From positions 62,001 through 126,000 of the forward strand of contig JAFRJE010000002.1 in the NCBI GenBank assembly GCA_017432425.1: a DNA stretch of 64,000 nt, in the 5' to 3' direction. Of the stretch, positions 28,308 to 31,973 are shown in pieces. The position numbers and the translations under genes were made by a program. Source of the DNA: Candidatus Saccharimonadota bacterium (lineage in GTDB: Bacteria; Patescibacteriota; Saccharimonadia; Saccharimonadales; Saccharimonadaceae). Each line of letters starts with the position of its first letter. Position 1 is the stretch's first letter. The notes under the pieces are model-generated. The model saw only the letters and a list, made by a program, of their open reading frames with translations, was not told the DNA's origin and searched no databases.

Positions 28308-31300
28308 ATGTTAGAGTTACGGAAGATTACTAAGGTTTATGAAACCGAAAGTCTAAAACAGACCGCGCTTAATAAAATTAGCGTAAACTTCCGCGAATCC
28401 GAATTTTGTTCAATCCTCGGTCCCTCTGGTTCTGGAAAGACAACCCTCCTCAATATCATTGGCGGTCTCGACAAATATTCCTCCGGCGATTTAGTTATTG
28501 ATAAAGTCTCGACAAAAAAATATAAAGATTCCGACTGGGATAGTTACCGGAACCATCGCATTGGCTTCGTTTTCCAAAACTATAATCTAATCTCCCATCA
28601 ATCAATCCTAAACAACGTCAAACTCGCTTTAACCCTTTCCGGAGTATCAAAATCCGAGGCAACCCGCCGCGCGAAAAAGGCGTTAAACGACGTCGGACTT
28701 GGCGACCACATCCATAAACGCCCGGCTCAGCTTTCTGGCGGTCAAATGCAACGCGTCGCAATCGCTCGCGCCCTCGTCAACGACCCAGACATTCTCCTCG
28801 CCGACGAACCAACCGGCGCGCTCGATACAACTACTTCCGTCCAAATCATGGAACTCTTGAAAAAGATTTCTGAACGAAAACTTGTTATTATGGTTACTCA
28901 TAATCCCGAACTCGCCGAAAAATATTCTTCCCGCATTATCAATATTAAAGACGGAAAACTCCTCTCCGACTCAAACCCTTTTACCATAAATTGGCGTAGC
29001 TCCCTAAAGCCCAACTCCGCTAAAATCCTCAGAAAAACCAGAAAAACAAAAATGAACTTTCTAACCGCGCTCAGTCTTTCCTTTAATAATTTAATGACGA
29101 AAAAGGGAAGAACCGTTCTAATTGCTTTTGCTGGCAGTATCGGCATTATCGGCATCGCCCTAATTCTCGCCGTTTCAACCGGTTTCCAAAATTACGTCGA
29201 TTCAATCCAAGAAGATACTCTCGACTCTTACCCATTAATGATAACCGAAGAATCTTTTTCTCTAACTAGTTTAATGACTAGTGGCGAAGAAGATCTCGAG
29301 AAATCGAACGAACTCGACTATAAATCCCTCCGCGAAGAAAAGAATAAAGACCTCGTCGAATATCCCGTCCTCGCGAATACTTTAAAATCCGTCGCAACCA
29401 ACGACCTAAAAAGTTTTAAATCATATTATGAGAAAAACGCCACCGCGCTTAAAAACGACGTAAAATCCGTTCTCGTCGGCTACGATATTAAACCCCTCGT
29501 TTATTCTGTCGACAAAACCAACCGCGTCGCAAAACTAAACCCAAACGATACTTTCTCCTCTATGTTCGGCGGTAGCATGAGTATGTTGACTAACTTTACC
29601 GGCGGCTCAATGTCGCTCTATAGCCCGCTCTACAATACCGACCGTTCGTCGGTCGAATCGAAATACGAAATCCTCGCCGGTCGTCTCCCCGAAAATTATG
29701 ACGAAGTTATTATTAACCTCGGAATTAAAGGCGTCATGTCCGACCTCCTCGCCTACGAACTCGGTCTAAAAGATACCTCCGAACTTTCGACTTTAGTCCA
29801 AAAACTTATGTCCGGCGAATCTGTTGATATTGAATCCGATCCAATCGTAATGGACTATGAGGATTTTCTCGATCTCGACCTCCGCCTAATTCTCCCCTCC
29901 GACTTATATTCTTATAACGAAAAATACGACGTCTACGAAGATATGTCTTCCGACCAGGCTTTCCTCGAAAACGTCTATAAAACTAAAGCAATCAAATTAA
30001 AAGTCGTCGGCGTCATTACCGCGAAAGAGGGCGTAATGACCGAATCTCTCGAACAAGGCGTTAATTATTCTGCCGATTTAATCGACTATATTATAAAACA
30101 AAGCGAAAATTCCGAAATCGTCAAAAAGCAACTCGAAAACCCCGAAATTAACGTCCTCTCCGGCAAACGTTTCGACGACGACAAAGCCTCGTTCGACTAT
30201 TCGTTCGAAGATCTTGTTTCTGTTGATAACGAAAAACTTTCCTCTCTTTTTAACGTCGAGATTGACCAGAAAACCTTAAATTCAACAATCGAAGATTATA
30301 TGAAAAAAATTTCCGACTTAGTCAACGTCGATACCGAGCCCGCAAAAACCGCTTTTCTTTCCGCTTTCGATTCTCTAACTTCTCTCCTTTCCAAAAAACT
30401 CGCTGATTATGAAGCCGAAACTTCCTCCTTGCCCGCCGACGCCGATGCTTTCGTCGAAAGTTTTCTCTATGAATACGCTCCAGGCGAAGTCCTCTCAACT
30501 CTCGAAGCCGACTATGTTCTCCCCGCCGACATCTACCGCGAACTTTTTTCTGGTTTCTATAAATCCCTCCTCCCGGCTTTCTTAAACGCCCGCTCTCTCG
30601 GCGTTGATGTTTCGCTTGAAGATTCTGTCGCCTACTTTAAAACTCTCGCGCCTTTCCTCGAAACCGAAGAAACTTTTGCGAAAATGATGACCGAAGCAAA
30701 AATTAAAAAATCCATCCTCGAACAAGTCGGCAATTTAACCGCCTACCTCTCTAAAACCTTTGCCGAAAGTTTTAATATCGACGCTTCTGCTTTCTCCTCC
30801 GCCTTTACTCTAAATTTCTCCGAAGACGAACTAACCCGCGTAATGGAATCGCTGCTTAATCGAACTGACGCAACTTTAAAATCAAACCTTTCGCTTCTCG
30901 GTTTCCAAGACAAAGATGATCCGTCCTATCTTTACTTTTATTTTACAAGTTTCGACGGTAAAGAAAATTTTCTTAACTTCCTAAAAAGCTATAACGAGAA
31001 AGTAGGAAAAGAACAACAAATCAACTTTTCCGACGTAACCGGAATTTTAATGGACTCCGTAAAAATTATCGTTAACGCCGTTTCTTACGTTCTAATTGCT
31101 TTCGTCTCAATCTCCCTCGTCGTCTCCTCGATTATGATTGGAATCATAACTTATATTTCCGTTTACGAACGAACTAAAGAAATTGGAATCCTCCGCGCAA
31201 TCGGCGCCTCAAAACACAACATCTCAAGCATCTTTAACGCCGAAACCTTTATTATCGGTCTTCTCTCCGGACTTTTCGGAATCATCATTTCCTATACTAT

Positions 31301-31484
31301 TATCCCAATCATCAACGTCATTCTCAACAACTTAACTAACGTCGCAAATCTCCGCGCCGCCCTAAACCCCTCCTCCGCGCTAGTTCTCGTCGTCCTAAGT
31401 ATAATTTTAACGTTAATCGGCGGCTTAATTCCCGCTCGTTCCGCCTCGAAAAAAGACCCCGTCGAAGCCTTACGCACTGAATAA
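28308..31484 (+). CDS. MacB-like ABC transporter, ATPase fused to FtsX-type permease
   Basis: 1058 residues. The ATPase domain (about 1-225) has Walker A GPSGSGKTT, FVFQNYNLI (Q-loop), the LSGGQMQRVAIARAL signature and ILLADEPTGALD. A membrane segment near residue 265 (VLIAFAGSIGIIGIALILAV) is followed by a very large extracellular region of about 640 residues. Three more membrane segments form the FtsX end (VLIAFVSISLVVSSIMIG, then YERTKEIGILRAIGA). MacB-type proteins act by mechanotransmission in export of lipoproteins, peptides or antibiotics. The periplasmic-like domain is far longer than in MacB. The next element is the structured RNA at 31503. Confidence 0.88.
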   Translation: MLELRKITKVYETESLKQTALNKISVNFRESEFCSILGPSGSGKTTLLNIIGGLDKYSSGDLVIDKVSTKKYKDSDWDSYRNHRIGFVFQNYNLISHQSILNNVKLALTLSGVSKSEATRRAKKALNDVGLGDHIHKRPAQLSGGQMQRVAIARALVNDPDILLADEPTGALDTTTSVQIMELLKKISERKLVIMVTHNPELAEKYSSRIINIKDGKLLSDSNPFTINWRSSLKPNSAKILRKTRKTKMNFLTALSLSFNNLMTKKGRTVLIAFAGSIGIIGIALILAVSTGFQNYVDSIQEDTLDSYPLMITEESFSLTSLMTSGEEDLEKSNELDYKSLREEKNKDLVEYPVLANTLKSVATNDLKSFKSYYEKNATALKNDVKSVLVGYDIKPLVYSVDKTNRVAKLNPNDTFSSMFGGSMSMLTNFTGGSMSLYSPLYNTDRSSVESKYEILAGRLPENYDEVIINLGIKGVMSDLLAYELGLKDTSELSTLVQKLMSGESVDIESDPIVMDYEDFLDLDLRLILPSDLYSYNEKYDVYEDMSSDQAFLENVYKTKAIKLKVVGVITAKEGVMTESLEQGVNYSADLIDYIIKQSENSEIVKKQLENPEINVLSGKRFDDDKASFDYSFEDLVSVDNEKLSSLFNVEIDQKTLNSTIEDYMKKISDLVNVDTEPAKTAFLSAFDSLTSLLSKKLADYEAETSSLPADADAFVESFLYEYAPGEVLSTLEADYVLPADIYRELFSGFYKSLLPAFLNARSLGVDVSLEDSVAYFKTLAPFLETEETFAKMMTEAKIKKSILEQVGNLTAYLSKTFAESFNIDASAFSSAFTLNFSEDELTRVMESLLNRTDATLKSNLSLLGFQDKDDPSYLYFYFTSFDGKENFLNFLKSYNEKVGKEQQINFSDVTGILMDSVKIIVNAVSYVLIAFVSISLVVSSIMIGIITYISVYERTKEIGILRAIGASKHNISSIFNAETFIIGLLSGLFGIIISYTIIPIINVILNNLTNVANLRAALNPSSALVLVVLSIILTLIGGLIPARSASKKDPVEALRTE

Positions 31485-31489
31485 AATTA

Positions 31490-31498
31490 TGCTAAAAT
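31490..31498 (+). promoter_or_regulatory. Extended -10 promoter of the 31503 RNA/31648 gene
   Basis: TGCTAAAAT follows the ABC transporter stop by 5 nt. Initiation around 31505 would start the transcript at the first hairpin. Confidence 0.5.
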
Positions 31499-31502
31499 TA
31501 TC

Positions 31503-31611
31503 TTATCTAGCTATACTTCGGTCCCTCGCTAGATAAAAGAAACTTGGTTATAGATATCGTCATTTATATCTATAACTTTGAGCCGTTTAAGTTTAGGCTC
31601 GCATAAATGAC
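31503..31611 (+). ncRNA. Structured leader RNA with pseudoknot before the 31648 gene
   Basis: Three perfect hairpins are visible. P1: TTATCTAGC / GCTAGATAA (31503-31511, 31528-31536), 9 bp. P2: GTTATAGATAT / ATATCTATAAC (31547-31557, 31566-31576), 11 bp. P3: GAGCC / GGCTC (31580-31584, 31596-31600). The P2 loop GTCATTT (31559-31565) is complementary to AAATGAC (31605-31611), so a pseudoknot enclosing P3 can form. A 36-nt linker with AAGGAG leads to the ATG. The design is that of a cis-regulatory RNA or a riboswitch-like element; no known class is recognised. Confidence 0.55.
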
Positions 31612-31647
31612 TCTAAGTTAATTTAAAAAATTTTCAAGGAGTTACTT

Positions 31648-31905
31648 ATGTTAAATTCTAACAAACTTAACAAATCAGAACGCGTCGAAGTCATGGCTCT
31701 TTTCGGCTATGAAATGACCCCGTGCCAACCGCTTTCGTTTAAAAAGCGTGGCGAATCTGAAATTGAGGTAACGGAGCTTCTCCGAACCCACATCAAATTC
31801 ACTGGCGCGACGGCGCATCACATCTTCGACGTCCTCTGCGGACGCAAGCAATTCACGCTAGAGTTCAACTCGACAGATTTGTCTTGGCATCTCCGCTCAG
31901 AGTAA
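31648..31905 (+). CDS. Small hypothetical protein downstream of a structured leader
   Basis: 85 residues; not recognised. No signal peptide or membrane segment. It is mixed alpha/beta in look (SERVEVMALFGYEM, then EIEVTELLRTHIKF), with Cys at CQPL and VLCGRKQF. AAGGAG lies 8 nt before the ATG. It is monocistronic: the structured RNA at 31503-31611 precedes it and a terminator follows at 31914. The investment of a 140-nt structured leader in a single small gene suggests tight control, possibly feedback by its own product. Confidence 0.6.
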   Translation: MLNSNKLNKSERVEVMALFGYEMTPCQPLSFKKRGESEIEVTELLRTHIKFTGATAHHIFDVLCGRKQFTLEFNSTDLSWHLRSE

Positions 31906-31913
31906 GTTCTGTA

Positions 31914-31937
31914 AAAATAGCCCTTTCGGGCTATTTT
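31914..31937 (+). terminator. Intrinsic terminator after the 31648 gene
   Basis: AAATAGCCC-TTTC-GGGCTATTT followed by further T residues. On the minus strand the AAATAGC flank can also serve the end of lepB, which converges from the right. Confidence 0.85.
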
Positions 31938-31973
31938 TTCTCCCCTCTCCTCCTAGACTTTACTTCACAATCC

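Follow-up and report, generated by a model that had tools for sequence, protein, structure and literature searches.

A conserved pseudoknotted leader RNA upstream of a DUF6504-related gene in Saccharibacteria

Does the folded leader upstream of a small-protein gene of a Saccharibacterium regulate that gene, and which signal might it read? Saccharibacteria are tiny parasitic bacteria, some of which are open to culture and genetic manipulation. Very little work has been done on gene regulation in Patescibacteria. According to one account, the way in which the cell cycle and differentiation are regulated in this phylum is unknown, and control of translation is likely to be key (PMC11665869). We analysed a stretch of 64,000 nucleotides, below called the window, from contig JAFRJE010000002.1 of a Candidatus Saccharimonadota bacterium (assembly of 711,736 bases in 30 contigs). 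The first hairpin of the leader begins at position 31503 of the window, and the leader precedes an 85-codon gene. An earlier note had taken it for a leader of the riboswitch or protein-binding kind that belongs to no recognised class, upstream of an orphan gene.

The leader contains three tandem hairpins of 9, 11 and 5 base pairs, as the earlier note described; these, the other leader elements, the promoter, the gene and the hairpin after it are on the plus strand. P1 is formed by UUAUCUAGC (31503-31511) and GCUAGAUAA (31528-31536). Its loop carries the best-conserved motif, which in most leaders is AUAC-YNMG-GUCMCU and in the window has AC at 31515-31516, UUCG at 31517-31520, GU at 31521-31522 and CCCU at 31523-31526. 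P2 is formed by GUUAUAGAUAU (31547-31557) and AUAUCUAUAAC (31566-31576), and P3 by GAGCC (31580-31584) and GGCUC (31596-31600). Seven bases of the eight-nucleotide P2 loop CGUCAUUU, namely GUCAUUU (31559-31565), are complementary to AAAUGAC (31605-31611) beyond P3, so that the proposed pseudoknot is present as well. The same is true of the extended -10 promoter TGCTAAAAT (31490-31498) and of the gene (31648-31905, ATG at 31648) with its Shine-Dalgarno (SD) box AAGGAG (31636-31641). A fourth helix had been missed. In the RNAalifold consensus, GACUCU (31609-31614) pairs with AGGAGUU (31637-31643) over the SD box, and this anti-SD strand shares GAC with the 3' strand of the pseudoknot. The 148-nucleotide leader folds at -40 kcal/mol, compared with -23.1 +/- 3.4 in dinucleotide shuffles (z -5.04, 0/200). 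Folded singly, P1, P2 and P3 have z-scores of -2.7, -6.3 and -3.5.

No family of Rfam 15 matches the leader, in agreement with the earlier note. At the gathering score only a tRNA elsewhere in the window was found, and in the leader region at E up to 10 the best matches had E of 1.1 and up, none of them credible. Fourteen sister loci yielded tRNAs and sub-threshold matches only. No published account of the element was found by titles and abstract openings, subscription papers, preprints and supplements being outside this search; in PMC8040213 no Saccharibacteria terms were found.

The fold is conserved in relatives. A search with the 85-residue protein in one genome per species (84,980 species) gave 124 relatives, of which the best 80 were kept as loci; 78 bear the title Saccharibacteria, one is a Nanosyncoccus with the strain name TM7, and one is listed as 'uncultured bacterium'. 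The same leader elements were observed in all 81 leaders, that is, the window and these 80 of the 124 relatives, and in 80 of the 81 they lie between a -10 box at a fixed distance and the start codon. A covariance model built from the relatives, R1, placed 91 of 91 leaders from three genera and supports the reading as a riboswitch-like or protein-binding leader. In the 90 distinct leaders, 95.6% of the cells of the proposed pairs are paired, compared with 83.0% after shuffling (0/500 as high) and 31-37% when the partners are slid. Both-sided changes occur in 19 of 32 pairs, with 328 such cells versus 83 in shuffles. This alignment was fitted to the fold and hence is biased toward it. Given a plain MAFFT alignment, RNAalifold recovers P3, the SD helix and parts of P1 and P2 unaided, and 9 of its 24 pairs are compensatory. 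When events are counted on a tree built from the coding sequences, P1-P3 show 157 double-compensatory events versus 5-19 for slid partners; the event counts are rough, because the tree rests on about 250 bases of a short gene.

The evidence differs between the elements. In P1, all seven modelled stem pairs have both-sided changes and the AC/GU of the loop never varies, and in P2 both-sided changes are seen in 10 of 11 modelled pairs. In P3 three of five pairs are invariant, and the other two are compensatory in two sequences only (by eye L120 and L121). Thus P1 and P2 are well supported by covariation, and P3 weakly. The pseudoknot of this leader, below called type 1, is paired in 99.8% of cells; four of its seven pairs are invariant, two vary by G-U only and none is compensatory. 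On the tree it has no double, 10 one-sided pair-keeping and no breaking events. The SD helix is paired in 98% of cells, four of its six pairs change on one side only, and it has no double, 23 one-sided pair-keeping events and one breaking event. These two helices are supported by conservation, with changes of the G-U type only. The compensatory changes that the earlier note would look for are thus found in P1, P2 and a few pairs of P3, but not in the type-1 pseudoknot, which is kept by invariance and G-U changes. Independent variation of the paired positions, which would have spoken against the fold, was looked for in the relatives and did not occur. With the fold maintained by compensatory changes, we consider that the leader is almost certainly a cis-regulatory RNA of some kind.

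The gene is hardly an orphan. It encodes a divergent relative of DUF6504 (PF20114), a family whose genes in other Patescibacteria are next to lexA and the genes of Y-family DNA polymerases. No sequence match to the window protein was found in Pfam (no family at E <= 10), NCBIfam, PHROGs or PDB, and the protein does not reach the PF20114 gathering score. Homology is found through intermediates: hhalign aligns the profile of the window family (A4) with 15 phylum-level Patescibacteria homologues at 96.8% (E 3e-10), and six of these 15 match PF20114 at E <= 1, one (L273) above the Pfam cut-off. Like DUF6504 proteins, these are small proteins encoded beside Y-family polymerases. Ten neighbours of the phylum-level homologues, picked by eye, were scanned and comprise five Y-family polymerases, four LexA with the S24 domain and one RadC. 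The family is present in at least 228 of 294 class genomes (E <= 0.01) and in 68 of 286 genomes of the phylum sample (E <= 0.001). The protein model has a predicted local distance difference test score (pLDDT) of 70, with the first 26 residues low, and its best Foldseek match has E 0.76. The best VIA fold match has Z 6.1. PUR-alpha repeats match at Z 4.5-5.6 over 44-45 residues. All of these matches are below the level deemed meaningful, and membership in PUR is not claimed. No paper on DUF6504 was found by titles and abstract openings.

In the sampled genomes the leader is linked to this gene family only. A family gene directly follows 78 of 79 strong R1 copies and 55 of 55 strong copies of R2, the covariance model of the type-2 leader described below (family genes among the matches listed). 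The single exception among the 134 copies, G148:C43:45-190, is cut by a contig end. R1 matches 82 of 294 sampled class genomes (E <= 0.1), with one copy in the window's own genome. Among the g1 genomes, 62 of 75 sampled have the leader; the gene is missing in 12 of the remaining 13 (among the matches listed), and the thirteenth (G067) has only a divergent family paralogue (L299), apparently within another operon and without the leader. Weaker second R1 matches in g8, as well as matches in g28, g29 and family f6, have mainly the P1 hairpin in common and occur upstream of homologous small genes. Seven of eight weak extra R1 matches are upstream of family genes (among the matches listed). The remaining weak match (L118) is upstream of an unrelated gene whose start resembles, by eye, that of elongation factor Ts, and it was regarded as due to chance. 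Since the gene neighbourhood differs between g1 subgroups, no particular neighbour goes with the leader.

Two other interpretations of the distribution were rejected. No relatives were found in viral contigs and phage matches were at chance level only, which does not favour a phage or viral origin. A CsrA-like regulon of P1 hairpins was sought in 60 g1 genomes with the pattern AHACYWMGGTCMCTR, which has a match in 47 of them and misses the window's own loop, ending in CCCTC. There is mostly one match per genome, and therefore no regulon is seen with that pattern.

A sister leader, type 2, was found in other genera of the family. It has a P1 with the same AUAC...GUCCCU internal loop on a longer inner stem, followed by a helix of the AUUGUC/GGCAAU kind that encloses a hairpin; the loop GAAACG pairs with CGUUUC, and the SD-hiding helix comes directly after it. 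Leaders of this type were found in 39 of 40 loci and 36 were aligned, with L204, L206 and L218 left out for their long inserts. L193 was missed by the type-2 pattern, and its genome (G047) has an R2 match there. The pairs are formed in 86.5% of cells versus 76.4% after shuffling (0/500), and both-sided changes occur in 16 of 27 pairs, two of them in the pseudoknot. Here the pseudoknot, unlike its type-1 analogue, shows compensatory changes, GAAACG/CGUUUC being replaced by forms such as AGAACG/CGUUCU. The inner hairpin is poorly aligned (75.9 and 41.6% paired). The type-2 SD helix has both-sided changes in five of six pairs; two of five measures are not above shuffles. R2 matches 61 of 294 genomes (E <= 0.01). 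In L198, L202, L208, L213 and L214, the type-2 leader is separated from the DUF6504-like gene by an open reading frame of about 50 codons with the pattern ..IE.PR..RPERID.LL..RM.EFLL.RR...

A third form was recognised by eye at the order and class level. A pair of the GAACGG/CCGUUC type, with strands 38-55 nucleotides apart, is present upstream of 15 of 31 family genes examined, with variants including AGACGG/CCGUCU and AAACGG/CCGUUU, and a P1-like motif is often found upstream. In several of these leaders a U-tailed hairpin lies just downstream of the second strand, judged by eye on RNAfold output; such terminator-like hairpins were seen in L237, L242, L244, L251, L254, L255 and L261. Sixteen minus-strand shadow matches were left out of set A5.

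The sister leaders connect the family to translesion synthesis. PF00817, the Y-family polymerase domain, was checked in 22 genomes. The polymerase gene is just downstream of the family gene in all seven type-2 genomes among them (G176, G117, G043, G095, G004, G116, G250) and in four order-level genomes (G089, G102, G119, G012), and in g8 (G049, G060) it is downstream of the second paralogue. No PF00817 polymerase was found in the window's genome, G099 or G237. In G018 and G030 it is elsewhere with no family gene near, and the leader stays with the small gene. Other leader types thus appear to drive an operon of the DUF6504-like gene and the polymerase, and the window gene looks like a stand-alone relative that kept the leader. 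The second, polymerase-linked paralogue of g8 (L113-L116) has a shorter leader. By eye, the SD box itself (GGATTT) can pair there with a strand located after P1 and before the hairpin that follows, AAATCC in L115.

How may the leader act? Since the SD-hiding helix shares GAC with the pseudoknot, the best reading is a translational switch. Both type-1 helices are conserved and overlap by three nucleotides, whereas their type-2 counterparts overlap by one. As read from the sequence, the full pseudoknot leaves only CUC to hold GAG of the SD box, and the full SD helix leaves the pseudoknot four pairs. With the pseudoknot at full length, the SD box would be held only weakly by CUC and the gene would be on; with GACUC paired to GGAGU, the SD box would be hidden and the gene off. 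The most likely input would be the DUF6504-like product itself, binding the P1 motif (the AUA/CMCU internal loop). Free product would shut down its own synthesis, and a task in DNA damage that occupies the product would lift this brake. In the sister species, the same kind of leader would drive the product together with the Y-family polymerase. Autogenous control fits best because the linkage to one family persists even in genomes that lack the polymerase or encode it at another place, and because a small P1 motif is shared amid otherwise different folds, with each paralogue having its own P1. The linkage is, as expected for such a leader, to the gene of the presumed regulator only. We give an even chance to the proposal that the leader of this single-gene mRNA is a cis-acting translation switch under autogenous control.

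A close analogy is provided by autogenous leaders of the ribosomal protein type, such as those of S15, L20 and S6:S18. They too track one protein family, have lineage-specific folds that share a small motif, and control one gene or operon. Unlike them, the leader described here precedes a gene whose product is not a ribosomal protein.

Several observations weigh against autogenous switching. The type-1 pseudoknot and SD helix have no compensatory change, and their invariance could have another cause. In the sister leader the corresponding helices share a single base and might stack and cooperate instead of being mutually exclusive. The product, with an isoelectric point of about 6.9, is not basic, and its fold matches are weak, with the Z value above as the best and nothing at Foldseek E <= 0.001. 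The gene is dispensable, as the 12 g1 genomes lacking it demonstrate. Finally, the restriction to a single gene family is also compatible with a narrow metabolite riboswitch. The neutral product and the weak fold matches favour neither of these two possibilities.

The strongest alternative is a true riboswitch, in which P1-P2-P3 together with the pseudoknot would be the aptamer of a metabolite, ion or nucleotide, a small molecule reporting DNA damage or starvation. Once bound, this molecule would lock the pseudoknot in place and thereby expose (or hide) the SD box. This is a serious possibility, although we hold it somewhat short of an even chance. The linker letters of the pseudoknot are near-invariant, P3 and the P1 loop are strongly conserved, and the outputs vary by lineage, from the SD helices of types 1 and 2 to the terminator-like hairpins seen by eye at the order level, which is usual for riboswitches. 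Given the exchangeable outputs and the conserved pseudoknot, a riboswitch fits nearly as well as autogenous control. On the other hand, one gene family only is involved and never a transporter or biosynthetic enzyme (among the matches listed), and outside P1 the sister leaders share no conserved core of aptamer size. In the known translational riboswitches preQ1-II and SAM-II, the pseudoknot adjoins the SD box or contains it. The leader resembles them in its H-type pseudoknot, made by a hairpin loop and a downstream strand near the SD box, and in translation as the presumed target. It differs in the separate SD-hiding helix after the pseudoknot strand, in the extra 5' hairpin with a conserved loop and in having no Rfam match.

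A passive leader without a dedicated ligand, such as a thermometer, an mRNA stability element or a translation-coupled mask of the SD box, is unlikely. The SD-hiding hairpin and start-proximal pairing would suit it, as would the A-U rich P2 of the window, but it would have no use for the invariant P1 loop, for P3 or for a pseudoknot this rarely broken. Conservation at the level of DNA, as an operator, a phage or a repeat element that folds only incidentally, is very improbable and for P1 and P2 already refuted by covariation: pairing is kept by compensatory changes while the letters differ and the genome has no second copy, even if the promoter adjoins P1 and some overlap with protein-binding DNA is conceivable.

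If leader RNAs control the polymerase operon, what has become of LexA? The gene pair of the sister species is homologous to that of LexA-controlled Y-family polymerase operons, and many outgroup members have LexA-box-like promoter repeats. In the window's order, by contrast, a structured RNA takes the place of the control region, and none of the LexA homologues read has an S24 domain. The LexA DNA-binding domain was found in 20 of 21 genomes checked, including the window's. The six Saccharibacteria homologues read have 109-151 residues and no S24 domain; that of the window's genome (G000:C8:3969-4157, L288) has 109 and consists of the DNA-binding domain only. No S24 peptidase match was found in the assembly of the window's genome. 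S24 was not found in 15 of the 17 order members checked, and in G116 and G012, where it is present, a long distance separates it from the LexA domain; in none of the 17 are the two joined. In contrast, in four outgroups (G005, G009, G473, G493) S24 directly follows the LexA domain.

The promoters show a similar contrast. Among outgroup family genes, 8 of 15 (chance 0.2) and 3 of 5 (chance 0.1) are preceded by LexA-box-like repeats. Such repeats are found in 1 of 80 type-1 (chance 1.5) and 2 of 40 type-2 (chance 1.0) upstream regions, so that neither type carries this mark of a LexA-regulated SOS gene; at the order level they occur in 3 of 25 (chance 0.5). This contrast is only suggestive, because the motif was chosen after viewing the loci. 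The motif presumably resembles known LexA boxes. Direct repeats TTCG-N7-TTCG (one of them GAACGTTTGTTC) were observed upstream of the DUF6504-like gene in L273-L287, in most cases some 25 to 53 nucleotides before the start codon, and are a candidate LexA box of Patescibacteria outside the window's order.

The loss of S24, the loss of LexA boxes and the appearance of the leader fall on the same side of the sampled groups. One tentative explanation, to which we give rather less than an even chance, is that in the window's order control of the translesion polymerase operon passed from a self-cleaving LexA to structured leader RNAs, the polymerase-less form of the window being derived. The LexA homologue would have retained only its DNA-binding domain, and the LexA-box-like promoter repeats would have vanished. 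The gap would have been filled by pseudoknotted RNAs that share a P1 motif and whose outputs, SD hiding or a terminator, are interchangeable, so that RNA would serve in place of the SOS switch of DNA-damage tolerance. In the window's lineage, the switch and the DUF6504-like protein would have been kept after loss of the polymerase.

The remaining features of the locus concern its boundaries. In 80 of 81 leaders a -10 hexamer precedes the conserved AC in the loop of P1 by 16-18 nucleotides, and 66 of the 81 have the TGn extension. Given this fixed spacing, the transcript is expected to start at about the first bases of P1. In the leaders of genus g8 (L122-L129) a conserved string near TTTCAAGACTAGCATAAG is located upstream of the promoter, and shorter forms, TCAAGTCT and TCAAGACT, precede the -10 box in part of g1 (L002-L010). 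These strings may possibly be a candidate activator site. Directly upstream of the promoter in the window (28308-31484) is the gene of a 1058-residue protein, an ABC ATPase fused to an FtsX-like permease. The SD-hiding helix of the window is able to extend toward the start codon. Downstream of the gene, a terminator-like hairpin, AAAATAGCCC-TTTC-GGGCTATTTT with a U run (about 31914-31939), was found by eye; it was not returned by the terminator scan of the window.

A native, covarying leader RNA in Patescibacteria offers a concrete switch to test. The sister leaders upstream of the polymerase pair hint that DNA-damage tolerance in these bacteria is under the control of RNA rather than of the usual SOS repressor. 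If the link to the Y-family polymerase is true, RNA would have taken over the role that LexA has in many bacteria, and the orphan family DUF6504 would gain a testable place in DNA-damage tolerance.
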